64,000 bases of DNA, from assembly GCF_026151205.1 (NCBI RefSeq), contig NC_087076.1, positions 6,314,902 through 6,378,901 on the forward strand, given 5' to 3'. This document shows, piece by piece, positions 33,898-58,236 of this stretch. The notes below the pieces were generated by a model that saw only the letters and a list, made by a program, of their open reading frames with translations, ran no database searches and was not told the origin of the DNA. Made by a program: the position numbers and the translations under genes. The stretch's first letter is position 1. Each line of letters begins with the position of its first letter. The stretch is from Bolinopsis microptera (lineage: Eukaryota > Ctenophora > Tentaculata > Lobata > Bolinopsidae).

Positions 33898-34012
33898 ATG
33901 CTCTTCATTTCTAACATGATTTATTGTCTCTTGTTCGCCGTTCTGCTGTCCCTGTCCTCTGCTATCTGCGAGTGGCCAGGTTTTCACGAAACTAATTACA
34001 GTTGTCAGGAAG
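33898..34012 (+). CDS. Candidate signal-peptide first exon 1 of the receptor locus
   Basis: ATG opens MLFISNMIYCLLFAVLLSLS, followed by SAICEWPG, a strong signal peptide with likely cleavage near residues 22-24. The exon then encodes HETNYSCQE and ends in phase 1 at AAG before GTAAGC. The next compatible plus-strand exon is 37584-37736, which needs two leading bases. No independent full gene follows before the minus-strand gene at 34379. I infer an alternative or distal first exon of the adhesion receptor locus, or a remnant of a tandem paralogue. Confidence 0.55.
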
Positions 34013-34378
34013 GTAAGCAAAACGAATTTTTATTCTTAAACATAATATTTTTTTCCCGAAACAACATATAATTATAATTAACAAAACAAAATAAAATATA
34101 GTAACGTTTATAATTTCCTCATGATCAGATCTTAAAATTAACAAATGTAAAAAAGTAGCTTTTTAAAATTTATTTTCTGCAATGAAAAAAATTTATTTTC
34201 TGCAATGAAAAGCAACACCACTAGTCACTACTACAATACCTATAACTCACAAAAAGTCCGCGCTCAATACGTAGCAACAAGCTAATAAAAGTGGTTGTCT
34301 GTACAAGTGTCACTATTCATCGCTTAATGGAATTTAACTCCGTATTATAACAGTTCTATAATACCGGGTCACAAATGC

Positions 34379-36154
34379 TCAGTCCACACTAAGCACAGTC
34401 TCCAGTGCCTTCTGCGACTCCAGCAGGTGTTTCCTCCTCTGGTTGTCTCTGACATACACGTTACCATTGAGGACCCACGTGTCCAGCAGTCTGCCTTGCT
34501 TTACTACCCTTCTAGCAGCTTGTTTCAGCTCATTTCGCCGCCCTATTAGCTGCTCGTCTACACAGATGGTGTTGGAGTACCTATAAGTAATAAGTAGGGG
34601 TGTAGGACGCAGAGTGTAGGACGCTGACAGAGTAGGATACGAGGGCGGTAAGAAAAGAGGGGATATAATAGTCAACTTAGTACACAGAGAGTGGTTAAAA
34701 ACCAGCGGCCAACAAAGACAGGTAACCAACATCAGGGTATTAACAGCCAGTAAAGAAAATAAAGAGAGAAACCTGCCGAACCCCTCCAGAGTTCTCATAG
34801 GAAGGCTCTGGAGCCGGTTCTTCCTAGCCAGGATCTGCCTCCTTGCTCCCAGAGCGTGCTCCATAAATATCACAATTACTGGACTCGTACGACTCGGTCT
34901 CCTGAGGATTATCATTGTAATAATGGTTTCAATTACGATAATTACAATTATTACAACAGTTTTCCTGGCAGCATAATACAAGTCTACCTACCTGAAGAGA
35001 TAGAACACGTCCCTAATGTCCTCCGACTCTAGGAACACGCCCACTCGATGAGCTACTCTTATCACCAGTTCCCTCAGCTTCCCAGGGGACAGCTTGGTAG
35101 GAACGTTTATTATCAGTATTCTGTTGGAGAGAGCTTCCTGACGGAGGTTATCACACTCCCACTCCAGCAGATACACTTTACCCTGACAGTACACAAGCTT
35201 TAGACCAATGATAATTCAGAATATCCAAATATGCCTATCAGATACAGTAGATTGTATTACAAAATGTCTGCTGAAATTATAGCATAAACCTAATCAGCTA
35301 ATAATTGGATAATTAGATTAATTAAATAATTAGTAAGTAAACCCTGATGTTTTCGTTGTCCTCCACAAGCCTTCTAATAGCAACTGCCAAGATCTCATAC
35401 TCTTCATGGTAAGCGTTGATGTTTTCCAGAATACCTTGAAATACCCCATTCAGCACTTCATCAGTGTAGGTGGTTCTGGGAGGTGAAGTGACGTCACCTT
35501 GATTAGTGACGTCATCAGAAGCAGTGCTGGGAGGGGGAGCTCCAGACACTGACCCCTGCTCACTGCCCCAACTCGGCCCACTGAGAGTGGGGACGGAGGG
35601 AGAGACACTACCCCAGTTAGAAGTCTGCTGCACTCCCACTAAATCAGAAAGCTGATCAAACAGAGCTGAGTGGGTGAGTCCTGCCGTCAGGAGAGTCGGG
35701 CTTGGTTCTGAGTGAACTCTTCTTCTCTTTATAGGACACTGATCTGTGGAACTAAGCCAAAGTTCAGTTGCCGCCGTGTAAAGTCCTTCATCTTCAGAGT
35801 CACAAAGATTGGTTCCGTTAGTAAACAGACCCTCATACTCAGGACCACAGAGGACTCCCTTTGTCTCCTCCTTCACCTTCGTCTCCACCTCTCCAACACT
35901 CTCATCACAACTCTCACCAACAACTACTACGGAGCTGCCTGGTGAACTGAGGGTCCTGACTCTGACTTCACTGTCAGACTCTTCAACAACCACTACAGAG
36001 CTGCCGGGAGAGCTGGATCTGAGTTCACTGTCAGATCCTGGGTTCAGGGACACTTCATCTGTCAGCTGCCCGTCTGGTGTGAAACAAGGCAGGACGATAA
36101 TACTGCTCCCCAGAGAGGAGTCAGAGTCCGAGTGGGTCGTGTCATCTTGCGCTG
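34379..36154 (-). CDS. SUMO-interacting-motif protein with Baculo_FP-like C-terminal domain
   Basis: Three exons on the minus strand: about 36154-35343, 35182-34992 and 34580-34379, joining in phase 0 and 2/1. The first is Ser/acid-rich and carries repeated SPGSSVVVVEESDSE and SPGSSVVVVGES blocks plus SSIIVLP. These hydrophobic V/I runs flanked by Ser and acid resemble SUMO-interacting motifs. KRRRV may be a nuclear signal. ILENINAYHEEYEILAVAIR may be a coiled coil. Exons 2-3 contain NRILIINVP, ESEDIRDVFYLFR, then TWVLNGNVYVRDNQRRKHLL, the layout of the Baculo_FP/L1-ORF1-like C-terminal domain seen in viral FP proteins and transposon-derived genes. No ATG is in the first exon's frame, so an upstream start exon is missing. 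Nuclear function and transposon domestication are inference. Confidence 0.6.
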
Positions 36155-36192
36155 CTGGGAAGAACCGGTTAAATCCATTACGAGCCGGTTAG

Positions 36193-37497
36193 TTTAAATA
36201 CACGGGGATACTGGATAGAGTGGTTGAATTATTTTAATTATTAGAATACTCTTACTACTTCCCCTTATGGTCAGAACCATGCCTTACATGATTTACTCTT
36301 CACTCTTGACTGACTCATTTTGGAAATCTTGTCACTTTGAATACACTTAATAATCTCTTAGGTGACAACTCTGTATTCATGCGAGGTAAATATAAGTGGT
36401 TTAATTCTGTGTATTGCGTAACAGTCCAGTATTTATACGGCAAAATTCGCGGACTCTGAACTTATCTGGCCAGAAATCAATTAAATCATCGCGGAGTGCC
36501 GGGCTACAAGGCAGAGTTGCGACCTCGACCAGATCATACGTCAAGCTATTGCAGTAAGGCGGATCTTCCTAACAAGTGGAGATACTTAGGATACATTACA
36601 GAGCAGAATATAATGGTAATAAACAATACATTAACCTAGACGAGAGACTGGTAGAGCCAAACTGAGCGAGTAAACCGGAGAAGTGATGCTGTGGCCTTGT
36701 TATAGCCTGCCACACTCGCTGCTTGGTCGTGTGCGCAGTGTGCGACTGTGTGTGTGACTGTGTGTGTGACTGTGTGTGTGATGGTAGTGTGAGTGGTGTT
36801 TGACTGGCAGTACGTCCTCCTGATTTCTCCTCATCATCACCACATGGTTACCATGGTTACGTCATGAGAACCGCTCTCACAGACCGTGACTTTATACTGT
36901 AATGTGACCAGAATATCTGGAGATGTAATACTGTGAGAGCGGCACAGAGCTCCGGACTTGTACGGATACAGATATACACCAGACTAGAAACCCGTAAATC
37001 AGCTGATATCGGAAGCCTCACCTTCAGTAGTGCTGGCGACGTTCGTTTCGACTAATTTCTACGAGAATACTCAGCAATATGTGCTGCTAGTTAGAACTAA
37101 CTCCTTGTAAGACTTCTTCAAATTCTTTAGATGTTTTGAGTTGTGCACGTGGTTTGTTAACCTGTGTGTTCTGATTGAGGTTAGGACTCTGCCAGATCAC
37201 ACACAATGTTCCTGGGCTTCACACGCTCTTACGTCACACCTCCTGTAATTCATAGCTCCCCCCACCACTCTCTTCTCAAATAACATCTCTGTGTCGTGAT
37301 CAACAACACCCTTCCTTACGTGTGTGTACCTTTCAAATTCGTTAGCACCCGCTTTGAACTTTTGTGTATATCTTATAAACATAACTTCTTGACGTGTTAC
37401 ACTTTGCACCTGTCACTGTTGGGCACTGTTTCACTTTGCAAGACTTTGTAACCGCTGTTTCACTTTGTAACTGTTGCTTTACCTAGTATGCTAACCT
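36193..37497. other. Intergenic or intronic DNA
   Basis: A TGTGTGTGACTG repeat lies at about 36745-36782. The missing 5' exon of the minus-strand gene may lie here, but I could not pick it. Nothing else is recognised. Confidence 0.4.
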
Positions 37498-37736
37498 TGG
37501 TACTTGCACTTATCCTACCATCCCCCTCCACTACCGACCCCCTATTTGGGGGCTGGACTACCCGAGCTGTTAGGACTGCTAAGAGGGGCTACTTCCCTTC
37601 CACCCTGAGCCTCCTGGCATGCTGCTGCTCACTAATGTGGACTATGTCAGGGAGTGTACCATAAAGGATGATTATGGGGGCAGCTTGAGGTTCTGGTGTT
37701 TGCAGAAAGCTAGGACTGGGGTCTGCTGTGAAAAAG
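37498..37736 (+). CDS. Cys-module exon, with a frameshifted signal peptide in front
   Basis: The 3' part (37584-37736, phases 1-1) encodes DYVRECTIKDDYGG, then SLRFWCLQKARTGVCCEK. This is the same C...WC...CC module found at 41410 and 45429. Upstream, ATG at 37498 opens MLTLVLALILPSPSTTDPLF, a good signal peptide, but in the next frame; the module frame has a TAA at about 37578. Either the exon truly begins after TAAG at 37583 and is spliced from 33898, or this is a first exon broken by one indel near the GGGG/CCC runs, by mutation or assembly error. Confidence 0.5.
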
Positions 37737-38227
37737 GTGAGTGGGAGACGTTATATTATATTTGAGACTGCACTCCTGTAAAGTCAGTATAGTGTAAATA
37801 CGCGGGTTTCATAAGTAATTTTCATTAATTATTGCGTCTGGCGAGCAAACAATTCCCGTCTAGAACGACCTTAAACCGGGAACCTGGTACTTACTACCTG
37901 GAGAACTAATATAACTCAGAGAGAGAGATGGACCTGGACCTGCCTTATAACCTTATAACTTTATAACTATGAGAAGTCAGACGTCCATTAGGGGACCCTG
38001 AAATAATCTTTGTGTTGATAAAGGAGCCCTATTTGGTATTATTGGTGTCAGTTCAGGACAGCCTTCAGTCAATGGAATCGGTGCTTCGTGATTCTCAACT
38101 TTATTTATTTCTGTTACATGTTCGTTCAACACCTAAATTTGGATCTGCTTTGCTCGGTCGAGTGCTATATTTCTTCGTTTGTATCTGTTATAGTCAATTG
38201 AGACCTTCATCTGTATAACTATACGTA

Positions 38228-39490
38228 TATACTATGCTCAGTATAGTATATAGAGCTACATCTATATCTGCTATCCTTAGTATATAGCTACATCTATATT
38301 TGCTATTCTGAGTATAAAGCTACATCTATATTTGCTATACTAAGTCTAGAGCTACATCTATATTCTTTATTTGCTATTCTAAGTCTAGAGCTACATCTAT
38401 ATCGATGCTATTCTAAGTCTAGAGCTACATCTATATTCTATAATATAGATGCTATTCTAAGTCTAGAGCTACATCTATATTTGATATCCTAAGTCTAGAG
38501 ACACATCTATATTTTTTATTTGCTATTCTAAGTATAGAGCTACATCTATATCTTCTATCTTAAGTATAGAGCTACATCTATATTTGAGGGACCACATGCA
38601 AAACTGGTATATCTGAACATATACCAATTTTGCGCAGGTAGCTCATAGTCTTCAGGGTGAAAAGGTGCATCTTTGGAACTTTTTTTGAACAATTTTGAAG
38701 AAATTTTTGAAAAAAAGTGAAATTTTATTTTTCCAAAACTGGTATATGTTACAATATACCATTTTAGCTTTTAACAATCATGAAAACAAAATGGTATATC
38801 TGCAGATAGACCACCTTCAAGAAACTTATCTTCTATGAAACCGGTATATCTATACACATTTTATAGACTTTAGCCAGCCCAAATGGTATATCTTCAGATA
38901 TACCATTCTCAGTTAAATTATTTTATTGTTTATAGTATAGAAAAAATGGTATATCGTGAGATATACCAGTTTTGGTACAATTCTAGTTTTAAAAATGGTA
39001 TATAGACAGATATACCATTTTTTAGAAGTGTTTTTTACACATGATATAGAATCTTTAAATCAGTAAAATGCATTTATCTCAAAACTATCAAAAACAGATA
39101 TACCAGTTTTGCATGTGGTCCCTCATTTGCTATTCTAAGTATAGAGCTACATCTATATTTGCTATACTAAGTATAGAGCTACATCTATATTTGCTATCCT
39201 AAGTGTAGATCTACATCTATATTTGCTATCCTAAGTCTAGAGCCACATCTATATATTTTGCTATCCTAAGTGTAGATCTACATCTATATTTGCTATCCTA
39301 AGTCTAGAGCCACATCTATATATTTTGCTATCTTAAGTCTAGAGATACATCTATATCTGCTATCTTAAGTCTAGAGACACATCTATATTCTATATCTGCT
39401 ATCTTAAGTATAGAGACACATCTATATCTGCTATCCTAAGTCTAGAGCTACAATTACATCCATATTCTATATTTGCTATCCTAAGTATAA
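38228..39490. repeat. Degenerate minisatellite of about 35-40 bp, split by a MITE
   Basis: Units resemble GCTATCCTAAGTCTAGAGCT then ACATCTATAT(TT). Copies are diverged and variable in length, with TATTCT insertions. The array is interrupted at 38586-39124 by an inserted element. Removing the element and one ATTT restores a normal unit. Confidence 0.93.
38586..39124. mobile_element. MITE with perfect 30-bp terminal inverted repeats
   Basis: The element starts GAGGGACCACATGCAAAACT and ends with the exact reverse complement, AGTTTTGCATGTGGTCCCTC; identity runs for 30 bp. It is 539 bp with no coding capacity. ATTT at 38582-38585 and 39125-39128 is the probable 4-bp target duplication. The interior carries many palindromic GGTATATCTG / CAGATATACC modules. 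The superfamily is not assigned. Confidence 0.9.
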
Positions 39491-41409
39491 AGCTATTTAT
39501 ACTCGCTGGTACCGTGCTCTTTGTTGTAACTAATTAGCTCCAGGTCGTGATACGCTCCCCAATCTCCAGCAGATCAGTAACGGATCGTTATGCTGCCCAA
39601 CTTACTACCCGGACGTTTCCCGGACGTTTCCCGGACGTTTCCCGTCAGATCGCTCTGTTGCCGCAGAGTGGCGACTGTAGTCCTCCTGTAGAATTAGGGA
39701 GTTGACAGAGTATAACCGCCTAGTTTCGTGATTAGTATTCTACTGCTTACGCTTATGTAGATTTCTCTTTCAATTCCCTTAATGATGTGGACGCTGCCTG
39801 ACAAGGCCTGAAGTGTGCTATTCTGTTACAAATTAGTGGTTGTCATTGGTTTGCCAGGGAAAAGAGTGCAGTTTCTTATATTGACGTGACTAGCACCTCT
39901 ATTCGCTTGTTAGTGTACATCAGACAGATGTTCTGTTGCTGAACGTCTCTTGATAACTCCCGGCCATCTTGATACTTTGTTTGTTTTGGGGTTGTAGTCT
40001 GGTCTCAATCGTCGGCTGAGATCTATTTGCTTTAAATGACTGTTTGGTTGCACTAGTAGCTTTATACCAGAAATTGGAAACAAATCACACATTGTGTAGT
40101 TCTTCGTTGTTTGTAGTTTCAACGTATCCTGATCCAGAGATCTCCATCTCGCTGATAACCTCATCCAGTCCAGATCCTCTTCCTAGAAGATATGTATCAT
40201 TGAGCTACGGACTAGGATCACATACTACGAGACTAGATCTAGAGAGAAAGTGGCAGGTTCTGTAAATAACAGCTGATGAAACTTTTTGTCATTTTAACGA
40301 CCCTTATTCGGACAGAACATCCTTCTCTGCTCATCATGTGAATTGTGAAGTACCAATATTATCCTGAGTTGAGTGTTTCTGTGAAATGTGTACAGGAAGT
40401 GTAGTGGCTGTAAACATGATTAACAGAAGGCATTAGTTCGAGCTTCGAATTCAAATTAATCGGTCTTGAAGTTACTTGACTAACAGTAAGAGAACACTAG
40501 CAGTAAGAGAACACTGCACGCTTGTACCTACCTACCTTGTAATGCAAGTAGTTCATTTGTTGCAGGTATTCCATAATGCAAAGTTGACTAGCTTGGAGGA
40601 TACTGACTGATTTGCTCACCGCCAAATCAGTGATTAATGGCCGAATCAGGATATATTTCTCACAATTATTTGTCCAACTGGACATTAGCTAGATTATCTG
40701 AGATGACATTAGCTGATGTTGATTGATTTATATTCTAGTTTAAGTAATGGATTATTACGTCTGTTTTCCGCCCAAGTGTACTGACCATTCTCCCTCCTTT
40801 CAATTTGTCATCTCTTGAAACTCTTCTTGGTCTCAGCTGGAGGTTGTCTGGCATAATGATTAGTGTTACCGTAGCAGGTCCGCTGGTTTTACTTCGTTCT
40901 AAATTTTAATTTCTCTCGGTTTGATGACAGAACAGTCGGGCTCATCCCAAAAGCACATTTTTGTAATAGTTGACAGTGTTAGTGCGTGCTAGACACCCTG
41001 CGCATAATTCTAGATCTTAAAACTATGTGTGGGATACTGCATGCTAAATATGTGTGGCTTACTGTACTCTTCTCAAACTCCTCTGAAAGCTGCAGGAAGG
41101 AACCGAGTTTCTCTCTCTCTCTTTGTCATTTCTAAAGCACGTACCTGTGTAATCTTAAGCCTGAACACACATCTCCTTTGTACCAATAATCACACTTCCT
41201 CCACCAATAAGAACCGGCACCAACACTGACTTCACAAAGCAGGAATTGTCATCACCACGGTCCTGGTTTAGTCTTCAGAGCTACACTTGAAACTCAGTCT
41301 ATCAGTCTGATATTACTACTGTCACATACCGTTCTCTTTATCAATTCTGTTTCATAGTGATGAGTTGCTTGCTGCGTCCTATAATGTATGTTCCGTGGTT
41401 CTGACAGTA
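39491..41409. other. Intron/intergenic DNA, no supported exon
   Basis: A 13-bp repeat (CGGACGTTTCCC) occurs three times at 39609-39645. Short frames on both strands have no recognisable product. Confidence 0.45.
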
Positions 41410-41566
41410 ATGCGGAACTACGTAAGGCTGGTGGTGCTGGCTTGCTGCCAGGTGGTTGTATGGAGCTGTTGGAGGTTTGTGAGGCAGTGCTACTTTCCCC
41501 GGATGAACCACCCTGCTGAATGGTGTCTTCAGCAGCACGGCAAACAGGACTGTTGCGACCCTCCAG
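41410..41566 (+). CDS. Candidate signal-peptide first exon with Cys module
   Basis: ATG at 41410 opens MRNYVRLVVLACCQVVVWSC, a hydrophobic leader. RQCYFPRMNHPAEWCLQQHG and KQDCCDPP follow, ending in phase 1 before GTACTA. The C...WC..Q...CC spacing matches the modules at 37584 and 45429. It joins in phase to 42056-42097 (GRSPPKHGAPECCT) and 42488-42559 (DCTNCLCCLQ), both symmetrical 1-1 exons. I infer an alternative first exon, or first exon of a paralogue, for the downstream receptor. RNA evidence is needed to place the 3' end. Confidence 0.55.
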
Positions 41567-42055
41567 GTACTATTAGTGTTACCAGCTGTTACCGTGAACA
41601 TTTCAGGTATTGTTCATGTGTCTGTTAATGTGGCTTGTGAAATTGAAAATATCGTAGAGTTTAAATTTATAATTCATTATAAATAATAGGTGTGAACTTG
41701 AAATGTTAGTTTCATTATGTTCCAACCTGGCTCTTGTAACCCAGCCTCTCAGCTAATTTTAGAACTATAAAATCAGTGGTTTGACCTAACACAAATTATG
41801 ATCATTGACTATTTCAACGAACTAATAATTCTCGCCTGTAGCTTGCATTTTTCCAAGCAACAAGAATACTTGCCAAGTTCAGATCAAATAGTCACCCATA
41901 ATGTATAAAACGTATCCTGAAAGTGAAAGTCCTAAAACCCGTGGAATTCCGATGTTCGGGCCGTCATATAAACAATAAAATTCCGTACAATTTTGTCTAT
42001 AAATGAGTTTGATATTTGGCACTGTTATTAGTGTGTTGGTTATATCTTGTGGCAG

Positions 42056-42559
42056 GGAGGAGTCCTCCCAAACATGGAGCTCCCGAATGTTGTACCAGTA
42101 AGCTCCTGATGTAGCTATATATCGTGTTGATATTCTTCGGAGAATATTTCACGTAATGGATCTGTTTGATGAAAACCCTATCACGAGAACTATACTCTTT
42201 GATGGTAGAATAAAAGCTTTCAAGAGTTAGGTCTTACTGTCGGATCCGGACTCTACGGCGTTAGAATTTGTTCTAAACTTGACCTTAACCCTAATTTTAT
42301 TGCGCCGAAAAATCTTACACCGTAGGGTCTCACGAGGTGGACCCTGAAGGCCACGATGATTATTTTTAAACTAGCGTGCCGATAATTTTGATTGAAATGT
42401 AAATAAAAATGTTTGAAATCTCAACCAAAAGATACCTCGGCCCTTGTCTTAGTTACAGCACATCTCAATGTCTGGAAGTAACTGCAGGTTATAACTCTGT
42501 AACTCACCTAACTACTGGGGTAGCTAGGGACTGTACTAACTGCTTATGCTGCCTTCAAG
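42056..42559 (+). CDS. Two small Cys-rich 1-1 exons
   Basis: 42056-42097 lies between GTGGCAG and GTAAGC and encodes RSPPKHGAPECCT. 42488-42559 lies between AACTGCAG and GTGAGA and encodes NSVTHLTTGVARDCTNCLCC. Both start with two bases and end with one, so they can be inserted or skipped without changing frame. Both end near a CC pair, as do the first-exon modules. They may be cassette exons after 41410. Confidence 0.45.
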
Positions 42560-45428: not shown

Positions 45429-48400
45429 ATGTTTCTCAACGTTTTCATGGTTTTTGGTTTGAGTATTCTGTGCTTGGTAATCCACTCCCGCGCCTCCCCC
45501 GACTTTCTGCACGACACCTTCCACAACGGTACGGTCGAGAGATGCCCGCTACCGTGGGATAGGATGATCTTAACAGAGCACTGCTGGCAGAACCCGCTCC
45601 TTAATGACTCCTGTTGTAAATCAGGTGCGCATCTCTTATAGCGTTGTTTGTTGGGTGTTACTTACAGTTACTTACAGTTACTTACAGTTACTTACAGTTA
45701 CTTACAGTTACTTACAGTTACTTACAGTTACTTACAGTTACTTACAGTTACTTACAGTTACTTACAGTTACTTACAGTTACTTACAGTTATTACAGTTAC
45801 TTACAGTTACTTACAGTTACTTACAGTTACTTACAGTTACTTACAGTTACTTACAGTTACTTACAGTTACTTACAGTTACTTACAGTTACTTACAGTTAC
45901 TTACAGTTACTTACAGTTACTTACAGTTACTTACAGTTACTTACAGTTACTTACAGTTACTTACAGTTACTTACAGTTACTTACAGTTACTTACAGTTAC
46001 TTACAGTTACTTACAGTTACTTACAGTTACTTACAGTTACTTACAGTTACTTACAGTTACTTACAGTTACTTACAGTTACTTACAGTTTAATAGTTGATG
46101 ATTTAGCCGACCAGCTAACAATCAATTCTCCACCAAAGGTTTGGTGATAAAAGTAAATGATTGCAGTTAAATTTGCTTGTTTCTTTTTGCAGTATTCACT
46201 CTCTCTAGTTAGAGACTGCATATTGAAAGCATCAAAATAACTTATTGGCAGTAATTGTAATAACTTTTTGGGTTCTTCGGTAAAATCGGAATCTGAAAAA
46301 CATGACTCTCAAATCGCCAAATAACAAGTACAACTCCATCTGTATAATGCGTCTGTAGCACTCCCTCCCCGCTCAAATGGCATTTCATTAAAATGTTGAT
46401 AAGGGCTGTGTTCAGCGCTGGAGCAGGCATTTCATCCAATTTCACTAGATAATACGAGTTAAATTATCAAAATAAACCATGATCGTCTTGAATTCGATTA
46501 ATTTTATCATGATTTATCTAACCAACTTCATGTTCTACAATCCTCAGATGCTCCAATGTCCGATCGTTTAACTTTACCACTACCAAGTATTTCATATTTA
46601 AACTTTGAACTTTTAAACGGTCCTAACTCTCAGCCTGATTCTTGAAAGTGTAGAGATTTAAGCTGGCTGGTTATCAAAATAGCTGGGTTATAATTAGCGG
46701 ACCACTTGTGGACTTCAGGTTTCAGGGTGACTAGTAAGTTGTGCTGAAATCACTAGTTAATTTGCACTGAAGCTGCTGCGGAAAATTCATTGACTGGTAG
46801 AAACCATAACTTAACGGTTAAGGTGTGAAAACGTTTGAGGACAGTCACCGCGTCAGAACTGGGAATTAACACTAACTTCACATGAATAGTTTAAAATATA
46901 GAAGCCAGCGAGCAAGAGCGGGGTGACCCCACCGGGGTCACTGCTCATTTCTTTGCGATAAACATATTCGTTAGACTGATTCTGAATGTCGCGCGGAATA
47001 AGTGACAATCTCTTTATTATTATCTCGTTATTGACAATTATTCTTCAGATCAGCTCTTATTCTGACAATTTCAGCATAATTACTTCTTTTTGTAGAACCC
47101 AAAGAAAATCTCGTGTAACATGCAAAGTTAAACTTAGGTGCGCGTCTTTATGCCGTAAACCTCTCCAAATTTTCAGCACATTTCCTATCATTACCAGTCC
47201 TTGAGACTGACCTCAATTGTTATTGTCAGTAGTCATGACAACATGACAAATGAATACTGGAACAAGTATGATGAGTCACTGTGAATAGTTGCTCCAACAG
47301 TAAGAATAATTATAAGGAATCTTAGGATTACGATGTCAACTATACGATTTAATGTCGTCAAGGCGTCAATTTTTGCAACAAATTCTTGAAAATGTGTTTA
47401 TTAGATCATTTTAGGAGTTAATTTGGGATGCAGCTTTTTACTGTATTATTTATCATCGAATACAAGCATTGACTGATGTTATGTTGCAAAATAAGGCATG
47501 ATCCTAACAATACGGTAGAATTTACTGCCTCTCAATATTAACATACTCTTTGCCCAGGTTACAGCAGATTCAAGGTTGGTATTGGACCGTCAGGATTGAG
47601 ATGGGCCCACAACTACTGCAGTGCACGTGGGGGTGAGCTGGGCGCGCCGCGCGACGACTACGAGTTCACTCTGGTGCTGCAACTCCTTCAGGGACACCCG
47701 TGAGTTCTTACTTAATTAGGGGTTTCCACGGCAACGGGTTCGTTACTACACATATCGGCGGTAGCTAGCGGCAATTTCGGATCAGTAGCAGCAGTGGCGT
47801 AACGAAGGGCCCCGCTGAGTGCTGACCCCGCTGTGCAGAGGGGGGGGGGGGGGGGCGCCAAATCGTCCTTTGAATGTGGGACAATTTCGAAAAACTTAAC
47901 TACGGTACTATGTACTAGAAAAACCACGTGTTTTGCTCTATAGAAACACACATTTTTAGAGATTTTACCGGTGTATCCTCTAAAATCATCTAATTTGTTC
48001 AATTTTAGGGAGGGGCGCCAATAGGGGAGGGGGCGCTTTTTCAGCGGGGGAGGGGGCCAATAAGCAACGTTACGCCACTGAGTAGCAGTAGCGCTGACCC
48101 GCGCCGCACATGTCCTTAGAAATATTAACTTTATCTTCGTTGTTACAAAACAATTTTTTTAAATCTTGCATTGTCCCTTATTCTCATGATCCCCCCATTA
48201 AGAATATGTTTGTTTCAGTGGTTGGATCAACATGTACCGTCAGAACAACACGCTTTACTCCGGCACGACCACGCCCCTAATGAACCTTACCTACATACCC
48301 TCCGAGGGGCCTGACGGTAACCTCACCGTCAACGGGGACGGGGACCTGGAGACCAAGAGTGTTACAGAGATGTTACCCTTCCTTTGCCAGTTTTCAGATG
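45429..48400 (+). CDS. Adhesion GPCR, N-terminus: signal peptide, Cys module, C-type lectin domain
   Basis: Exons 45429-45624, 47558-47699 and 48219-48400; phases 1, 2 and 1 agree. Exon 1 opens MFLNVFMVFGLSILCLVIHS (signal peptide), then HNGTVERCPLPW, HCWQNPLLNDSCCKS, the local Cys module. Exon 2 encodes RWAHNYCSARGGELGAP, the W-A-x-x-Y-C-x-x-x-G-G-x-L signature of C-type lectin domains. Exon 3 begins WINMYRQNN and ends EMLPFLCQFSD, the domain's W-I and F-L-C end. No EPN/QPD calcium motif is obvious, so ligand type is open. Several NxT/S sequons are present. Exon 3 ends in phase 1, matching the HormR exon at 55496. Intron 1 contains the 10-bp array; intron 2 contains a hAT-like MITE. Confidence 0.75.
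45657..46088. repeat. 10-bp tandem repeat (GTTACTTACA), about 43 copies
   Basis: Nearly perfect array with one 9-bp copy near 45786. It starts some 30 bp after the donor of the exon ending 45624. All three plus frames are open because the unit has no stop in any frame. On the minus strand each unit reads TGTAAGTAAC, a strong 5' splice-site-like word. Confidence 0.97.
47792..48080. mobile_element. Non-autonomous hAT-like MITE with 8-bp target duplication
   Basis: The ends CAGTGGCGTAAC (47792) and GTTACGCCACTG (to 48080) are perfect inverted repeats. AGTAGCAG flanks both sides (47784-47791 and 48081-48088). TIR sequence and 8-bp duplication fit hAT. The interior has a G run of 17 and G-rich GGGGCGCCAA stretches and no ORF of substance. 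It is inserted between two exons of the C-type lectin domain. Confidence 0.9.
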
Positions 48401-51400
48401 GTGAGTACTGGGAGGTGTTGGGCGTTGGTGATATTCATGTGGTGGGGAATGTTTAATTTTATTGAGTTCATTATTGTGGGGATCGGTATTCTATGACAGC
48501 TTTCAGTTTTCACGTGAGGGCCAAGCCTGATAACAATCAACATATTGAGACAACTTCATGTAAATAAATCTAATTTAAGGTAAATGAAACTTCGTTAAAG
48601 ATCCACCAGGTTGAAGTTTTAACAAAAATTATTATGAGAATAATAATAATATAGGGTCGAGGCGTGTAAACCGCAAACTTTTGTCCACTATAATAAGCTT
48701 CACTTTTGCTGTTTTCACGGTGAGAAAAATGAGAAACCTCGCGAAGTGAACGAAATCTTATAAAATTTCAGTCCCGTATTTGATGTTCCGTAGAAGTGTG
48801 GGTGATGTAAATACTGGAGTATATAATTATATCCCTATCTCGCGGGGTCTCACTAATTCTATGATTCACGTTATCGTTAGTATATACTTTACATTTTGTT
48901 ATGATTCTTATATATTTTAATGTTAGTGTCCGTCAGGGTTGACAATTTCATACCATTAGGAATTAGGATCTCCTGCTTTATTGATATTTTTTTTCATGTT
49001 TCTCTCATTTTATAACTATATTTTTGCTGACAATACTGATTTTATTTTTATCCCAGAAACTGTTCTGATTTTTAAAAGATTTTCTTAACTCATTTTAGTT
49101 TTAAAACTACCCCGACTTTGAACGATGGCTCGAGTTTTGCTATTTTTTATTGTGTAGTTTTATTGCAATTTCTGATAAAAACAGTCCAACCAGCAGTCTC
49201 GCCACAGTTCCTTGAGAAGCAAGTACAGCTATATTGCAGCTAAATAGAGTATGTTAGTTCCTCCCAACGAAACAGCGTGAGGAACTTAGTAGAAATTGTT
49301 TTGAAACTAGTGCTAGATGAGGCGTGAGGAACTGAGTGGCAATTGTCGTGATGTTGTCGTGTATTGTCGTGGTGGGCGAGGCAATGTTTTGAACTTGTGC
49401 TAGTCCACCAAGCAGCACAAGAATCTAGTGACTAGATAGATATTCAGCACGACAACGTGCACTTCTCATATAGTAACACTAATTAATTTTAGTCTGTTAT
49501 TTTGATGGTTTGCTGCTCATGCGTTACGTTCCTCACTTGCTCTGCAATTAGTCTGATTGAGTCTTGTCTCTTTTCCTCTTTCCTCGTTAAAAAGCCATAA
49601 AATGTACGATATTACGTTTACCCGGGAGAGACTGGTTAACAAAAGCCGTATAATGGTAGAGTCTCTGTAATTGACTGTAACATTATGTGGGACTAACATA
49701 GGCTGGGTACCATCTTCTTCAGTCTCAGCTTATTGTTATTTTATTGTACCAGTTGTATCTTGTATCTACGCATGAAAGAGCAGTGTAAAAGTGGTTTATA
49801 TATTGTCCATCGAATGCATTGTCAAGTTGTTATTATTAAATTTTAATCGCAAGTAGACTGGGGCTAGTTGAGTACTTATCATCAAGATTTAAGAATCATC
49901 TCGATCGTTCCAGTACAAAACAAAGTTTTATAATTTTCTAGACGGTAAATGTGAAAGCGAGGCTTTTGAATCCCCCGAATAACAAGGAAGGTGTGAAAGT
50001 TTAGTTAAACTCGACTACTTGCAGTTTGTATCCTCACAGTGTGAAAAAGTTAGTCATGTAATCTCTGCAGTGTGAAACATTTAGCCGTGTTTTTACTCCC
50101 CCTGTTCCCGAACTCTGTTCTGTCGTCAACTACACCGCCGTTGCTATGACTACCCGCCGTCCTTGCACGTTCTCAACATTGTCTAACTGTAAATCTGTCA
50201 GGTACAGTTATTCTCATCCTGCAAATTCCTTAGGTTTCAATGTTATGGGCTACTGTACATTCTCAAACCTAAATACAGCTCCGGCTCGGAGTGTAATCCT
50301 GCTATTTAGTTTAAATTTGGCGTTTCAGTCCACCAACAAAAGGTTTCTCAACATTCGTCACGTTATTCATTTGTGTGTATTCCTACAACCAGGAATTCAG
50401 ATCCTGTATCCGAGTATGTTGAAATGCTGGTAACACATTATTATTTCCTATCACACTTGCCCGCGGATTTGCGTAGAACTCTTTGACATATGTTACTCAC
50501 AGTAGCTGTTAGTCACGCTCAATGCCACTAAAATATTTATAGTATTCGTAGTTCTCGTCTCACATGTTGTTTTCTTATTGCTGCCCTAAAAGTTTATAGT
50601 TCGGTGATTTTGAAGTTTGTTCTAATCTGGAAACCTTCATTACGAACATTGCTTCATAACTGTTACCAGGGTGCTTCATAACTGTTGCCAGGGTGACCCT
50701 ATTAATTTGCAGTAATCTGTGATCTGTGACACTTTGTACCGCCTGCTAAGTCCTTTCTAAAACATTAAGGTCCACAATTATTCCGATAAGGGCTCTAACT
50801 GTTAGTCTCTAATTTTATTCTTCCACAAAAGTGCAAATTTGTTAATTTTCAGCCGTAGCGTAAGATCTGCAGAACCACCTAAATGTTAATAATGACCTTA
50901 AATGGGCGATGAGTTCATTCCCTTATCATCTGTTGGTGTTCATGTTTTTGTACCGTCATGTTTTAACCATGTTATTGTAGACTGTGACCTAACATTGCAG
51001 CATTATGGTGCCCCCGTGGCGCAGGAAGCGAATATTTTGGTTTTTATGATTGTTTTTATAAATAATCTGCACAGCTTTCATGAATTATTCAAGATAATTT
51101 TTGGGTGGGGGGGGGGGGCAACCCCATGCCCATTAATTTCTCAATTTTTGGACAAATGGGCATGGGCATCGGTGGGCATTGCTGTTTTTAAACCTTAAAA
51201 ACAGCTACAAATTTAGCTGTGATGAAAAGAACTATCCTCTAATTTTAATAGTGTTCGGTAGGGAGCTCTCGACAGACAAGTGAAACAAGGCAAATGACCG
51301 GTGAAAACTAAATGAAATAATCGACGTTCCGGCACTCATTGGCCCTTTACTAACATGACTTATACTAATTATAAATTACAAGGGCCTCTCTTAAGTAGGC

Positions 51401-54028
51401 CAGTCCAATTAACTTCTTGTCACGATGTATTATTTTTAGAGCAGCATATTATCTTTAAGTACCGTGTGTATGTTTAGCCAAGTTGTGGTACACCTTACTT
51501 ACTTGCTCTAGTTCCTATAATTGGGCTGCCCTACTTAATTATAATCAGTAATCTTAGTAAAAGGCCAAAAGTAATTAGCATGTACATTGTACAGCTATAT
51601 TTCAGCTAAATAGAGTATGGTATCAGATTTTTCGATCTTGACCGATCTTGAATAATGGTGAAAATGATTTTGCCCATTTATTCCACAACTTTTGGTCAAA
51701 TGGACATGGGCTTCGCCGGGCATCGATGAGTTTGCCCCCCTCCCCCATTTGTTCTTGCAAGTTGCAACTCTTTTAACCATGACGGCATAGAACTAGAAGC
51801 CTAGACAAGTATATTGTTTCCGTGAGTTATAAAAGAAACGCTTGGCTAATTTGACCCCACTTTCTTTCACCTGTGAAGGGTTCCTGTTGTGGAACTGTAC
51901 TTTAGTTAGAGGCAGCTGGTCGGCCAGACCTGTCAGTAATTTCAATAATTAATATCCTTAATTCTCCTGATATCTCCTTAATGACGAGGAGGGCTCTTTG
52001 ATCCTTTTATTCCTTTTAACTAGGACCTCGTTAGTAGAGCGCGCTAATATCCACCCTTCATTACCCGCTATTAACTCTACTTAAGCTGCATTTTTATGCA
52101 TTTTTATGCATTCGTTGACATACAATAAGAGGTTCTAATAATTACACTTACAAAGCGTCTGAGGAAGGGCGATATAAAGTGGCTTGTTTCTTGTTTTGTT
52201 GAAGTTCTTAGCTTTTCTTACAGTTCCTTCTTCAAGTCTCCGCATATTTGCTGTCTCCACTACTATAATATATAAATATATACATCTCCGTTTTAATTGC
52301 TTCGGTATTCTCTTCGTACGTGGTCGTAAAGAACATTATCCTTATCCGAAATTAAAGAATATTATCCGTAATTAATGAACATACTCCTTGTTCGTCTTTT
52401 AAGAACATCCTCCCTTGAGTGGCGTAATGTTGCCTGTTGGCACCCTGTTGGCACCCCTCCCTAAAATTGAACAAATTAGGTGATTTTAGAAGATACGCCG
52501 GTAAAATCTCTAAAAAAGTGTGTTTCTATAGCAAAACGCGCAGTTTTGCTAGTACCTCAGTTAAGTTTTTCAAAATTGTCCCACAATCAAACGACGAGTT
52601 TGCGCGCCCCTTAGATGGCCCCAACCCCCCCCCCCCCCCCCCCCCCCCCTCCACAGCGGGTTCAGTGGGGCCCTTTGTTACGCCACTGCATCTTCCTTGT
52701 CCGTCATCAAATAAATATAAACTATAGGAAAGGATCTTCCTAATCTTGCTTCAATGACGGAATTCAGAGCAGAATATATAAGTGTTTGGGAAATCAGGGT
52801 AGGTCTGGCTTTGCTTACGTTATAGATTGCAGGTCAAGTATCGAGCTTAACGCGCACTTGCACGTGCGTGATGTTGGTCTGCCTCTAATTTGAGATGGTA
52901 TCGATCAGAGATCCAACACCTATTCTCCCATCCCAAATTATCTCGTGATCTCAAATTCCTGGACTGGGCAGAGTTGTCTGAATGATATGGGGATATGTCC
53001 CCGAGGTTTGAGAGCGTGCACGCAGTCATGTCGGGATTCCGTAATCTTCAACCTTGTTGACAGGACTACTGCCCGCTTTATGTGTGGTTTTCCGTCTCAG
53101 CTGTCGTTTTACAGGTTTTCACTTTTCCCGTCCAGGCTGGTGAAATGTCGGGAATAAAGCACCCAGCTTGTTCAGGGATCTGCTCCTCATATCTCCTCAC
53201 TCGTTGTCAACAGAATCTGTAGTTGTCTGCTTCACACCACGTGACACAAACCAACCAATCAGAGCACAGTATTCATACCACGTGACACTGACAGCTACAG
53301 TCTTGACGTGATCGCATTCTATTGACACGCTCTGGGCTTGCTTGTTGGGTACTGCCTGCTTCTACCAATTATTAAACTTGTCAACGTCTCTCCTACGAGA
53401 GGTACCCTCTCCTGCCTAATTTAAAGCCCACGTGCCTCATTACCGTGCCCGTGCCCACGTGCCCGTGGCACTCATTACCGCTAGTTGATTGCCAATTGTC
53501 GGACGGTGTTCGTCTCTGTTCCGGGTGTTATTCCGTAACATTTTCACTTCCTAAACTGTTCCAGGTCCTAAACTGCGCTAACTTCCTGCTGTCTCACGGT
53601 TTCGCTGTCTCACGGTATTTGACAGTACTGAAAATAATGAGTTAGCGTCTATTTGCTGGAATATGCACATTATCCAGGCTTGTTGTAACGGCCTGGTCAC
53701 GGCATTGCTGCCACACTCCTCAGACTATATATGTTGGAGTCACACTACTCAGCGAGATTACATCCTACACTACAGCCCTCCTCCTTCTACGAGATACGTT
53801 ATTTCTCAGAAGTGTTTTATTTTCTCCGCTTCTTGTTTGACACCTATTAGAGAGGTTATACTCCGTTCCGTTATTTCTCTGCTGTCTCTTCCACTCCTGT
53901 CTTTCACGCTAACAAAACGTTACCACTGCGCAACTCTTTTACTTCATTTTTATTTATTTATTTTATTTTATTTTATTTTAATCGCCGTTTATTTTAATGA
54001 TTATATTTATATTAAGGGTTTTTGGGAC
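48401..54028. other. Large intron/intergenic interval
   Basis: No exon is supported between the lectin domain and the exon at 54029. It holds a second hAT-like MITE copy (52414-52688). Two related stretches, with GGACAAATGGGCATGGGCAT near 51155 and a diverged relative near 51690, appear to belong to another dispersed repeat. Paired CACGTGACAC words lie near 53240-53285. Confidence 0.5.
52414..52688. mobile_element. Second, inverted and more diverged copy of the hAT-like MITE
   Basis: The right end TGTTACGCCACTG is intact; the left end reads GAGTGGCGTAATG and is mutated. The interior is the reverse complement of the copy at 47792: it contains CCCTCCCTAAAATTGAACAA, ACGCCGGTAAAATCTCT and a C run. 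Flanking CATCCTCC and CATCTTCC could be a decayed duplication. Confidence 0.8.
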
Positions 54029-54119
54029 ATGTTAAAGATTTTGATTTTGCTGTTTGTGGTTGTGGTGGCCGGCAAAACTAGAAGTCACGGCAGACAGTAC
54101 CTGAACAGACACTACTACT
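54029..54119 (+). CDS. Candidate signal-peptide first exon directly before the HormR exon
   Basis: ATG at 54029 opens MLKILILLFVVVVAGKTRSH, a textbook signal peptide. It continues GRQYLNRHYY and ends in phase 1 before GTAAGT. The next supported exon, 55496, takes two leading bases and gives an in-frame join, yielding a receptor without the Cys module and lectin domain. This would be a short isoform of the same receptor from an internal promoter. The frame is also open upstream of this ATG to about 53663, without meaning. Confidence 0.6.
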
Positions 54120-55426
54120 GTAAGTTTAAATCTCGGTTAAAGTTGAGAATGTATTTTAAAGATGATATATGGGACTCAAAAGAACTAAAAGAGTTTCCTT
54201 GCTCAAATACACTTACTGTTTAACTTTATGATCCCTTGAAATTATTATTTTTGCAACCAATGGGCGTCTGTAAACTTCATTAACAGGCAATAAGTTTTGA
54301 AATATAGTTTAATCGGGGGCGGAGAAACAATAAGTCATTGAATGGTTGGTGTTCTTTGGACAAATTATTCATTTCTAGTCCCTCGGACAAGTTGTCAGAC
54401 TTCTAGCTCTAGTGGCAGGGATTGTGTATGTCTTGACAAAAACTGAGTAAATTGTAAGAAAGCAAAGTTTACAACCATGACCATAAGTTGACATAAGCCA
54501 CTGTGATTTGGTCGGGAAGCCAAATATCGGCCACTAAGTTTACTAATTAAAGCATTCAACTGAGCTGATCCTTTGTTGGCTGTCAGATTATTTTTGATGT
54601 TTTTCTATATTTCAGCGCCAAAGTAACCCCGACCCTCTCCTCTTATAAAATCCAAAAATTAGTATTCTATAATAATTTGCCGATTGGATTGTCCTTTGAA
54701 GGATTACCGGGGGTTAATTTAATAATAAATGTCACGTCAATGTGGTATTTGTGTATAGCGGGTAAAAGTTTCTAAGTTTTACAAGAGTGGTGGGAGATGT
54801 ATGGTTTCACTCGATGATAAGTAAAGAGAGGCTGAGACACAGCGGATTGTTGATTCGCACAGGTCGCACTGAATGAGATACCTTATAGGAGATCAGCACT
54901 TAGTTAAATGTTAAAGCTTCTACTTACTCCTAAACTTATTCTCTTATAAATCATGGCGGACATCGGTAAAGTCTTTTTTTCCGTTCCAAGCACTCAATTT
55001 TAACAGCTTCAACAATCAACATTACTTCCCAAAAACTAAATTTTGATATGATAAAAGTGTCCGAATGACCTGCGACGGACGATGATGAACAAAGTTAGTA
55101 ATTTAAAAATTAAGCCACACTGTTGAAGGGTGTGTGGTCTCCGAACTGCTGGAAGAGGGCTGCTATCTTGCCACTTGTTCCATCCGGGCGACTACCCCCA
55201 CTCTACTTCTCCCTCAATATACCCATATCTCCGCAACCCGCCTAGCACCACCCCGCTCTCCCTGCTAGTTGTAACCCATACTCTCCTCTCTCTGGAGCCA
55301 GGGAGAGACTCACCGTCACTGATCACTCAGCAAACACTACTCCGCACTCAGCGACCACAAAAACAGTTTAAAATATCAATACATAGATAAGAGGATATAT
55401 AAAATTTCTTCACATACGTGTTATTC

Positions 55427-55488
55427 ACATCACGTGTTATGACGTCACACCACGTGTTATGACGTCACACCACGTGACCCATTGTTGT
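55427..55488. promoter_or_regulatory. Duplicated E-box/CRE-like cluster
   Basis: CACGTGTTATGACGTCACAC occurs twice in a row, followed by another CACGTGAC. It therefore alternates CACGTG and TGACGTCA palindromes just before the HormR exon acceptor. It could be a regulatory element for a nearby internal promoter; no binding is shown. Confidence 0.35.
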
Positions 55489-55495
55489 GTTTCAG

Positions 55496-58051
55496 TGGAG
55501 GAGGAGATACCGGAGTTACACTACTGTCTGCCCGAGGAAGTAGAGACGGAGAAGGGAGTGTTCTCGTGGGTTGCAGCGTCTACTAACAGTACTGTGAAGG
55601 TGCTGTGTCCTCATGGTGTTGTCGAGGGGGTTCCTATTCATAAGGTACTTTACATGTTTCTTAACACAAGGATATATTTTTATATATATATTGATGTTTA
55701 AAAAGGCGGAAGTTTCCTGCTTCTTTTCAAGCCGTAATGTAATGTGGTTATAAAATTGGTAAATTGAGTCTAGCCTGTTATCATGTCAACAACAGTATAA
55801 AACATAGGCTTGATGACAGGTATATGCTTATTTTTGATTAAAAGCAATTACTTAAAAACATTTTGAACGTAGTATTTAATCTAGCACCACAATTATAGGG
55901 CTGTTTTCGGGCGTCAACTTTTAGTTCCGAGTCCAACAGACCGACATTTAACACCTTGCAAACTAGGTAATCTCTTCTCCTTAAAAACAAGTAATGTTAA
56001 ACAATGTTGTATTATTGAAAGCAAAAAGAAACATTTTGACTGTAACACTGTTGTCCAGGGTTACTCCAGTAGGACCTGTGTCCCGGGGACGGCCGGACTA
56101 ACTCCAGTGTGGGCAGACGCAGACATGTCGCGCTGTAACTACGAAAACAGAAAGACCCAGGAGCTTTCCTCCCTCCGGGAACTCGCTGTTACTGGAGATA
56201 ACGCAGTGGAGATAGCTGCCAGGGTCCTGGACCTCACTAATAACTCACACGAGGTAGTTAGATCAGATACTGTAGTTAGTTAGTTTAGTTAGTTAGTTTA
56301 GTTAGTTAGGTAACTAACTAACTGGCAGTGTCATCGTGTCGCAGGGTCATGCTTTAGCGCGCAACATGGCGCAGTTACCGGGCAGGAACTCTTTGATCTT
56401 TAAATTATTGTCAAGCCTTGGCTTCTGTAAAAGTATTCCGATAATTATAATTCTAGGTGTTTTATCATAAAGAATTGTCAGCAACAATAAATGATAACAA
56501 TAGATAATATGATTCAATAATATGATACATTCCTTATCGCTTGACTTGTCAAGTGTCTTAAAAAGCTATTGGTGGGATGACATATCTTGGTTTCAGTTGG
56601 ATGATACAGGTGTAGGCATGGTAACAGATATTATAGAGCACCTAGTGGAGGCGCAGAACTCCTCAGCTACAGAGAACATTACTCAAACTCTTAGTAATAT
56701 CTTAGACGTGAGTTTATTTCCTGTGTCCATGGCTACAGGTTGTAGTTTTGATTTGCCTCGTTTTTAAAATCATGCAGGCTACCCTAAAGTCTGAAAAGCA
56801 GTAAAAGTTTTGTTAAGAGTCTGTCACCAAAATCACGATATTTCGAGCGTCAAGATATCCGTCTTTAATTTTACAGCGGGAATCCTCTTAAATCCTGTTA
56901 AAATATGCAGTTATTTCATAGTTTAAAGTTCCTCATTGTTCAGGTAGACGAACAAACACTGTCCATATCCCAACAAAAAGACAGGACCTCTGACAGGATC
57001 CTAGACTCGCTGGAGAAAGTGGCGGGGAGTGTCGCGGACACCCATTCTCAAACCCTGGACACTAAGAATATCCGCATAGTAGCTGCTCGTTCATCACTTC
57101 TGCACAACATCACGTGAGTTACCAGTCTGACATACCTGTCACATGAGATACCTGTCTTTGTTGTCTCACTGCAATGGGTTGTCATGGGTTACAGTTGGGT
57201 CGCCGTGGGTTACTGCTGATATTAGGCGCGCTCTGTTGTGACTGTCTCCTCTCCTCCTCCCCTGTCACACGGGCTCTCTGAGTTAACTCATATTTGGTCT
57301 GTCTTAATTGTATTTAGTCTTTATTATACCTTCTTTTCAGTTTGAGTTCCGATAACGGAGTTGAGTTTAATTTACCGGCAGCAACTGTATCTTCAAATAA
57401 ATCAGCTTATATCATTGCCTACACTACACCCAAAGTAAGTAATAAAGATCAACAGTAACTAAAGGATATCATAATTATCGTACTAAAAACGTCTTAATTA
57501 ATTGCTAACCAACCAGATAACCGACTTATACTGTATTTAACTAAGATATGATATTAACTCTCTTGTCCCCTAGTTGTTTACGAGCAGGGTGCTAAGTATT
57601 GGTGCTGCACTGGAACTACACACCAATACTACCCAACAAAGCGAGGAGTTCCTCAACACTGTTATAATATCAGCTGGGCTGGACAGAGAGGAGGTTTCTA
57701 ACCTCACTACCCCTGTTCAACTGGTCTTCCCTATTATCAACACGGTACGTTAGATTAACATTTCTTACAAAGTAACATTAGAAATAGTTCAGTAGACCCT
57801 ATCATGTCTCTCCGCTCCTTTAATCCTTCTCCTCCTCTAACCCTCCTCCTTCTCCCCAGGACGCGTCCATAGCCCGGTGTGTTTACTATTCCAATAACAG
57901 TGACGGACAGTGGCTATCTGACGGTTTAGAGTCTATATATGATAACGATACTAAAACTGTGACCTGTAGATCTAGTCACATGACCAGTTTTGCAGTTATT
58001 ATGACTATTGACGCTAAGACTATTGTTCACAGTGTCGGTACCAATGCTGTG
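55496..58051 (+). CDS. Adhesion GPCR, middle: HormR, GAIN domain and GPS (7 exons)
   Basis: Exons 55496-55644, 56059-56253, 56597-56707, 56944-57113, 57341-57434, 57574-57744 and 57860-58051 join in perfect phase. Exons 1-2 form a hormone-receptor-motif domain: YCLPEEVETEKGVFSWV, VKVLCPHG, SRTCVPGTAG, PVWADADMSRC. Exons 3-6 form the helical and beta parts of a GAIN domain (SDNGVEFNLPAATV, VQLVFPIINT). Exon 7 holds the GPS: ARCVYYSNNSDGQW, TVTCRSSHMTSFAV. The normal second and fourth Cys are replaced by Leu and Ser, but the other pair and the H-x-T cleavage triad (H-M-T) remain, so self-cleavage is plausible. The stalk after it, TSFAVIMTI, would act as tethered agonist. Confidence 0.88.
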
Positions 58052-58236
58052 GTGAGTAAAATATTAAATACTGTCTTACCTTGTGTTAATAGTTTTTAAA
58101 ATAACCATTAAAAATTAACTGGTTTTTACATTAACGAGTTTTTATCTCAGACTTCAATCTTTCGCCCCATTTCAATGTAGAAGATAACTTATTATCAAGG
58201 AAAGCCAGACAGTGCTTAATAATCTGCACTCTCCAG

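Follow-up and report, generated by a model that had tools for sequence, protein, structure and literature searches.

How many N-termini can a single adhesion G-protein-coupled receptor (aGPCR) gene offer? The question is raised by a stretch of 64,000 nucleotides of the genome of the ctenophore Bolinopsis microptera (C5:6314902-6378901; the whole stretch is called the window below), which holds one such gene, composed of a C-type-lectin-like part, an HRM-like (hormone-receptor-like) part, a GPS and seven helices. An original prediction had placed an array of signal-peptide first exons ahead of a single receptor body that they share. The reading that we favour, and to which we give about an even chance, is that of one ctenophore aGPCR gene with a variable-first-exon region, in which the first four starts would add the lectin-like part and the start at 54029 would omit it. 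Five first exons are observed directly in the window (a slash marks the splice junction; scores in brackets are donor scores, with their rank among GTs).

E1, 33898..34012, plus strand: signal-peptide first exon MLFISNMIYCLLFAVLLSLSSAICEWPGFHETNYSCQE/G; phase-1 donor AAG/gtaagc (9.0, top 0.6%)
E2, 37488..37736, plus strand: ATG at 37488 and a hydrophobic start, with the Cys module YVRECTIKDDYGGSLRFWCLQKARTGVCCEK/G in another frame; phase-1 donor AAG/gtgagt (11.3, top 0.02%)
E3, 41410..41566, plus strand: signal peptide and Cys module FVRQCYFPRMNHPAEWCLQQHGKQDCCDPP/G; phase-1 donor CAG/gtacta (5.7)
E4, 45429..45624, plus strand: signal peptide and Cys module TVERCPLPWDRMILTEHCWQNPLLNDSCCKS/G; phase-1 donor CAG/gtgcgc
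E5, 54029..54119, plus strand: signal-peptide first exon MLKILILLFVVVVAGKTRSHGRQYLNRHYY/L within the L2-H1 intron; phase-1 donor ACT/gtaagt (5.2)

All five exons end in phase 1, and the GT donors of the clean ones stand at 34013 (E1), 41567 (E3), 45625 (E4) and 54120 (E5). The reading frames confirmed the signal peptides predicted at 33898, 41410, 45429 and 54029 together with these donors; the fifth start, which had been described as frameshifted, does have a broken frame, but its correct ATG is 37488 and not 37498. Each first exon is 91-249 nt long and encodes ~30-65 residues, that is, a signal peptide and roughly 15-45 residues (the latter by eye). Signal peptides were called by our own hydrophobicity rule, a rough one that uses no trained predictor, and the splice scores, likewise rough, were built from 13 donors and 11 acceptors (13 in one scan) of the same gene, with the L1 and H1 acceptors outside the acceptor training set and the L1 and H1 donors inside the donor training set. 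Since phase 1 is a frequent end phase of signal-peptide exons in animal genes, the common phase is by itself weak evidence.

The exons downstream are as follows.

L1, 47558..47699, plus strand: first of the two C-type-lectin-like exons; entered in phase 1 and left in phase 2; acceptor score 15.3 (top 0.08%)
L2, 48219..48400, plus strand: second of the two C-type-lectin-like exons; entered in phase 2 and left in phase 1
H1, 55496-55644, plus strand: hormone-receptor-like part, the acceptor exon common to E5 and L2; acceptor score 8.0
H2, 56059-56253, plus strand: second exon of the hormone-receptor-like part
GAIN region, GPS and seven-helix exons (56597..61561), plus strand, from the joined open frame and Pfam: 56597-56707, 56944-57113, 57341-57434, 57574-57744, 57860-58055, 58151-58419
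Remaining GAIN region, GPS and seven-helix exons, plus strand, on the same basis: 58826-58924, 59550-59684, 60654-60812, 61147-61278, 61415-61561

The L1-L2 pair is in phase 1 on entry and on exit, and the 13 exons from 55496 to 61561 (plus strand) join into a single open frame of 676 codons. Two junctions of the body are less certain, namely that from 57860-58055 to 58151, where the donor lies four bases beyond the first choice, and the acceptor of 60654-60812, which was chosen by frame. The body is identified as an aGPCR by 7tm_2 (PF00002, 115.8 bits against a cut-off of 20.6) and GPS (PF01825, 39.3 bits against 22.5). GAIN subdomain A (PF22259) ahead of the GPS reaches 19.3 bits against a cut-off of 22, and HRM (PF02793), a domain of many but not all aGPCRs, scores 17.4 bits in H1/H2, under its cut-off of 26.2. 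Similarly, L1 and L2 together score 16.1 bits against Lectin_C (PF00059), under the cut-off of 22.6, and in the PDB the lectin-like part matches surfactant protein D at E=1 only; its PDB matches to TAL repeats, 22-23 residues long with no stretch passing alone, were set aside as chance. By eye, the receptor tail runs beyond the window end. At the end of the last seven-transmembrane (7TM) exon, 12 copies of a 39-base unit (61538-62005) repeat the donor CAG/gttagt, and this array, read through in frame, would give a 13-residue repeat tail with a stop near 62020.

The receptor body has no close second copy. In a search of 264.65 Mb of genome in 232 contigs, which scored best candidates only, neither the body nor the lectin-like part had such a copy: the body gave 72 matches at E<=10, the best of which by E-value outside the window is 30% identical, with short pieces at other loci reaching 48-51% identity over fewer than 50 residues, and of the three matches of the lectin-like part at E<=10, two are to itself and the remaining one has E=0.92. 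A second copy of L1, L2 or H1 was not found in the window. Judged by sequence alone, several coding first exons are in phase with one shared acceptor (the frame of E2 being broken), and the shared downstream exons are single-copy among the best candidates. These results bear on the alternative, also raised by the original prediction, that whole receptor genes were duplicated in tandem and have since degenerated. In its favour, E2-E4 are similar, and the starts of E1-E4 are evenly spaced at 3.6-4.0 kb (3590, 3922 and 4019 bases), gaps as even as these arising in 0.3% of random draws in a test picked post hoc. On the other hand, no second L1, L2 or H1 was found in the window and no close second lectin-like part or body among the best candidates of the genome, and a same-strand self-comparison of 33-56 kb (26 rows at E<=0.01, made up of tandem repeats and a few short stretches) shows no repeat at the first exons and no DNA similarity between them. 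We therefore disfavour whole-gene duplication as very unlikely; the comparisons support a duplication that would have been limited to the first exons.

Which acceptors could these first exons use? The joined frames into L1 (47558) and H1 (55496) remain open in phase 1. From the E1 donor to 55600, 13 sense AGs have an acceptor score >=8, and only two of them combine phase-1 entry with an open exon and a good donor: L1, with 47 open codons and a donor of 9.1, and H1, with 67 open codons and a donor of 8.0. The best donor among the other 11 acceptors is 0.5. Consequently, the good partners available here to a phase-1 first exon number two, and both belong to the receptor gene. Thus, of the four phase-1 acceptors originally predicted, 47558 and 55496 held, with open joins and good donors, but those at 42056 and 42488 failed the acceptor, codon and chance tests as exons.

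C2, 42056..42097, plus strand: proposed 42-nt exon, unsupported
C3, 42488..42559, plus strand: proposed 72-nt exon, unsupported

C2 and C3 were rejected on their acceptor scores of 3.1 (top 9% of AGs) and -5.0 (top 52%) and on their null-level codon scores; moreover, the same intron contains 14 open AG..GTRA segments by a criterion that includes C2 and C3, against 22 on the other strand. With C2 and C3 failing, E3 would join L1 directly, and E2, E3 and E4 would then give a like junction, CC-x2/3-G-YSRF. The same weak acceptors, null-level codon scores and abundance of similar open segments make it highly improbable that the gene has a single constitutive 5' chain, E3-C2-C3-L1-L2-H1, with all other starts spurious, although this chain is open in phase.

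The clustering of the first exons is also a direct observation. In 22 kb of the sense strand, four open reading frames (ORFs) run from a signal peptide into a phase-1 donor (hydrophobicity >=2.6, donor score >=5); the same scan found none on the antisense strand, and the 33.5 kb upstream had none on either of its strands. Among 300 first-order Markov shuffles, 230 contained none, 61 one, 8 two and a single shuffle three (mean 0.27), and none reached four. Other threshold settings gave 2 to 4 sense ORFs against 0 or 1 per control, and phases 0 and 2 gave 0 and 1 ORFs in the sense strand at the main thresholds. Other genomic stretches yielded two such ORFs in 59.4 kb of strand, one of which is the E1 homologue described below, and five other aGPCR loci of the genome yielded two in 55.5 kb of sense strand (one a CV repeat, one a transmembrane segment), or, with both strands counted (111 kb), two sense and one antisense, none convincing. 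The pooled control rate gives P(4 or more)=0.001; these chance figures are guides only, because the exons had already been picked and the thresholds were set knowing them. The pattern C-x5-10-CC-x1-4 before a phase-1 donor, chosen post hoc, occurs at 3 of 191 donors (>=25 open codons, donor score >=4), which are those of E2, E3 and E4. Among sense GTs, the first-exon donors rank within the top 0.02 to 6.3%. Of 300 open non-coding frames matched for GC, at least 299 have a lower codon score than E1, E4, E5, L1 and L2, and the start and the module of E2 each score as coding (null fractions 0.0 and 0.03 of 300). A phase-2 signal-peptide-like ORF at 42003-42097 was treated as background. Another aGPCR locus, C6:5457001-5473000, which has an apparent lectin-like, Ig-like and sushi-like N-terminus (by eye), showed no first-exon cluster in the scan; it also has long reverse-transcriptase-like ORFs.

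Are these exons related to one another? Three related Cys modules had been predicted, and an alignment of all five exons for common ancestry had been called for. The same Cys pattern is present in E2, E3 and E4, and the kinship of E2 and E3 stood, that of E4 being suggestive; no kinship of E1 or E5 to the other first exons was shown by alignment. Of the predicted layout, then, several first exons before one shared body agree with the phase joins, the two partners and the lack of a close second copy, but a common ancestry of all five did not emerge. For the pre-cut modules of E2 and E3 the alignment score was matched by 0 of 2,000 shuffles, and for the whole exons the local alignment was reached by 0.4% of 5,000 shuffles. 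When each was compared with 2,814 window ORFs, E3 was the best other match of E2, by one point, and E2 ranked fourth among the others for E3 (40 vs 45, 44 and 40); from these narrow ranks, the similarity is a short one. Over 18 aligned codons, positions 1, 2 and 3 agree at 12, 13 and 8, and 5 of the 9 identical residues use different codons, a synonymous change that is expected if the protein was kept after duplication. The homology of E2 and E3 is thereby supported, and the Cys spacing of E2/E3, into which E4 fits, is suggestive of E4 kinship as well. A profile of E2-E4 recovers these three alone as module exons in the window; its next match, at 31430 (E=0.054), rests on five letters, WCLQQ, and was rejected. 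Relatives of E4 or of the E2 module elsewhere in the genome were not found at E<=10 in a search that is weak for such short queries (E2 and E4 miss each other and E3). A match of PF14625 (Lustrin_cystein) to E2 was dismissed as too weak (E=0.04, 14.7 bits against a cut-off of 27).

E1 appears to have a different history. It gave four genome matches at E<=10 including itself, the best other one lying at C10:12244907 (E=0.048), where a first exon (C10:12244898-12245003) encodes a signal peptide and then CDWPAFFETSNSLC with a phase-1 donor, compared with CEWPGFHETNYSC in E1; the two have in common C-[DE]-W-P-x-F-x-E-T. In view of this homologue, E1 looks like a genuine exon type that has moved between genes, although the gene that it serves here does not follow from this; the C10 exon suggests that an exon combining a signal peptide with C-[DE]WPxFxET has been shuffled among genes. 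The C10 exon is followed by sushi-like pieces (E 0.0026 and 0.003, just below cut-off) and by no aGPCR. This raises the alternative that some or all of E1-E3 begin other transcripts, either of small secreted proteins or of nested genes, an alternative favoured also by an opposite-strand gene that separates E1 from the rest.

Antisense gene, 34379..36188 (at least 36188-35343, 35182-34992, 34580-34379), minus strand: at least three exons between E1 and E2, with an open joined frame and GT/AG junctions

The antisense gene has no Pfam match at E<=1. Against an origin of E1-E3 in other transcripts, the window gives no match below E=0.1 to four sushi-like pieces from C10 used as queries, and L1 and H1 are the only good phase-1 acceptors with an open exon and a good donor from the E1 donor to 55600, an exon with a weaker acceptor being possible. 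We regard this alternative as distinctly unlikely.

Several observations weigh against a variable-first-exon region as a whole. The array is known only as DNA, and the three-exon antisense gene stands between E1 and the remaining exons. The frame of E2 breaks ahead of the Cys module; the module is itself open, in a frame of its own, between ~37583 and the donor that follows 37736. The donors of E3 (5.7) and E5 (5.2) are among the weaker ones, compared with 5.3-10.7 for the training introns, and the codon score of E3 is not above the GC-matched null (0.36). Parts past the signal peptide score worse than whole exons (E1 0.77, E4 0.087), so that much of the coding signal stems from the hydrophobic stretch. 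When the donor threshold is lowered to >=4, phase 2 has three sense ORFs, including that of E4 itself, and the controls have 0, 1 and 2. Finally, the alignment of E4 with E2 and E3 over whole exons is not significant (0.23 and 0.59 of shuffles) and with pre-cut modules is reached by 0.013-0.017 of shuffles; leave-one-out profiles recover E2 at E=0.43 only, and E3 and E4 are not among the eight matches listed.

The broken frame of E2 deserves closer inspection. By eye, homopolymers of five bases, both C and G, occur in its stretch, and the wtdbg assembly of B. microptera comes from a study in which PacBio libraries were made (PMC10232365); on these grounds an assembly error is possible, and a mutation is equally possible, so that E2 would be either a decayed exon or the victim of an assembly error. 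No frame-keeping GT..AG pair for an intron linking its start to its module was seen within E2 by eye. An acceptor at ~37584, entered from E1 in phase 1, would be possible in frame; by eye it sits in a purine-rich stretch.

Based on these observations, it has to be asked whether only two starts work, E4 for the lectin-like form and E5 for the short form, with E1-E3 as decayed or rarely used relics of duplication. E4 and E5 are the nearest to the acceptors that they need (the E4-L1 intron is 1,933 nt and the E5-H1 distance 1,376 nt, E4 being the first exon closest to the lectin-like exons) and have good codon scores, and E2 with its broken frame, E3 with its null-level codon score and E1, cut off by the antisense gene, all fit such a scheme. 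On the other side, E2 has the best donor of all (11.3) and both of its parts score as coding, E2 and E3 keep residues in common through synonymous codon change, and E1 combines a strong donor with the homologue on C10. Nested genes, moreover, are common in the ctenophore Hormiphora (2,357 inside 1,654 hosts; PMC8527503). Two working starts are a possibility to be reckoned with, although on balance an unlikely one.

If the variable-first-exon region is real, each first exon would, in the simplest scheme, have a start of its own and be joined to the good acceptor that comes next, which is L1 in the case of E1-E4 and H1 in that of E5. E1-E4 would each supply a signal peptide (that of E2 being out of frame with its module as assembled), E2-E4 would add the short Cys module, and their phase-1 donors would be spliced to the strong L1 acceptor, giving a product with signal peptide, module where present, lectin-like part, HRM-like part, GAIN/GPS and 7TM. 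E5 can join H1 only, because of its position inside the L2-H1 intron, and would give a short receptor lacking the lectin-like part. First-exon choice would thus set the outermost segment and leave signalling unchanged. E2, E3 and possibly E4 may derive from an old exon duplication, and E1 may have been acquired or shuffled separately.

We infer that each exon is transcribed and spliced, with separate promoters or leader trans-splice sites. The first exons lie 1.4-13.5 kb from their acceptors, compared with 95-969 nt for the body introns, and internal promoters could fit into the long upstream introns. In Hormiphora, trans-spliced leaders are present on at least 56% of mRNAs (PMC8527503), and since ctenophores trans-splice leaders onto many mRNAs, leader trans-splicing is a live alternative to separate promoters. 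No acceptor-like site within the 100-nt stretch just upstream of the ATGs is outstanding as a sign of it, the best being 41358 (top 1.8% of AGs). A bolder version of the variable-first-exon reading, which we hold to be rather unlikely, is a working array with four or more interchangeable N-termini for one body: duplicated Cys modules (two or three), a shuffled WP module and a lectin-less start. Such an array would have arisen independently of UGT1 and the protocadherins, and its N-termini might be chosen not by promoters of their own but by leader trans-splicing on one long pre-mRNA.

How does such a layout compare with known systems? First exons of the vertebrate UGT1 locus carry a signal peptide and are long, encoding a large part of the enzyme. 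They stand in tandem, each with its own promoter, ahead of one shared set of downstream exons (PMC3325998, PMC1885805). The likeness lies in several first exons before one shared exon set; the first exons here differ in being 91-249 nt long, with a signal peptide and roughly 15-45 residues, in having putative promoters, and in that two or three of the five look homologous. In the clustered protocadherins the variable exon is the whole ectodomain and the shared part is intracellular. These genes, named beside UGT1 as a variable 5' exon array (PMC1885805), also place variable 5' exons ahead of shared 3' exons; in contrast, the shared part here is nearly the whole receptor, and E1-E4 had no cadherin match in Pfam, so that whole-ectodomain exons of the protocadherin type were not found. 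Among mammalian aGPCR genes, ADGRF5/GPR116 has 23 different 5' start exons and ADGRB1/BAI1 an intron-17 promoter, and alternative starts alter or remove N-terminal domains of one aGPCR; tandem duplicated signal-peptide exons are not mentioned in the parts of these sources that were consulted (PMC6667449, PMC11711277). In Mnemiopsis leidyi, HormR, GPS and 7TM are among the partner domains of CTLD proteins (Fig. 3d legend, PMC11797021), so a lectin-carrying aGPCR is probably not new; the part of the paper with this legend does not mention first-exon variation. Alternative aGPCR starts in mammals and variable-first-exon arrays in UGT1 and protocadherins are thus established. Among the publications, mostly titles, on ctenophore aGPCRs, B. 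microptera GPCRs, ctenophore alternative promoters and aGPCR first exons or promoters, no title concerned such an array.

Repeats lie among the first exons. Between E2 and E3, within a local tandem array, 38574-39131 holds a ~545-base repeat resembling a miniature inverted-repeat transposable element, with ~32-base inverted ends; it is 86-100% identical where full length and occurs at many sites on most large contigs (most of 149 match rows, including pieces). At 45657-46088, starting 33 bases past the last base of E4, are 43 copies of the 10-base unit GTTACTTACA, each with an acceptor-like TTACAG, and a similar array lies at C4:2.418 Mb. Upstream in the window, one long open frame on the minus strand at 21515-22780 encodes a rhodopsin-type GPCR (PF00001, 45.4 bits) and another at 15517-16995 a metallophosphoesterase (PF00149, 37.1 bits). 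The genome also has 32 matches to a glutamate-receptor binding domain, many in long open frames and clustered, e.g. at C12:11.78-11.81 Mb and C3:15.86-15.94 Mb. For the S1 region of one of the genome's glutamate receptors, the closest solved structure is ML032222a of Mnemiopsis (E=4e-34), ahead of 4zdm of Pleurobrachia (1.4e-22), both from ctenophores, and CG3822 of Drosophila (1.2e-19).

Iso-Seq data have been reported for B. microptera (PMC10232365). If the exons are used, one receptor could get different outermost segments from cell to cell while its signalling part stays constant. Ctenophores form a phylum that may be sister to all other animals, and the locus would then place a multiple-first-exon array in an early-branching animal lineage, provide a testable route from aGPCR N-termini to ligands, and make it possible to test whether ctenophores can use leader trans-splicing for exon choice. 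Even if only one or two of the exons are used, the locus would still record the birth and decay of first exons.

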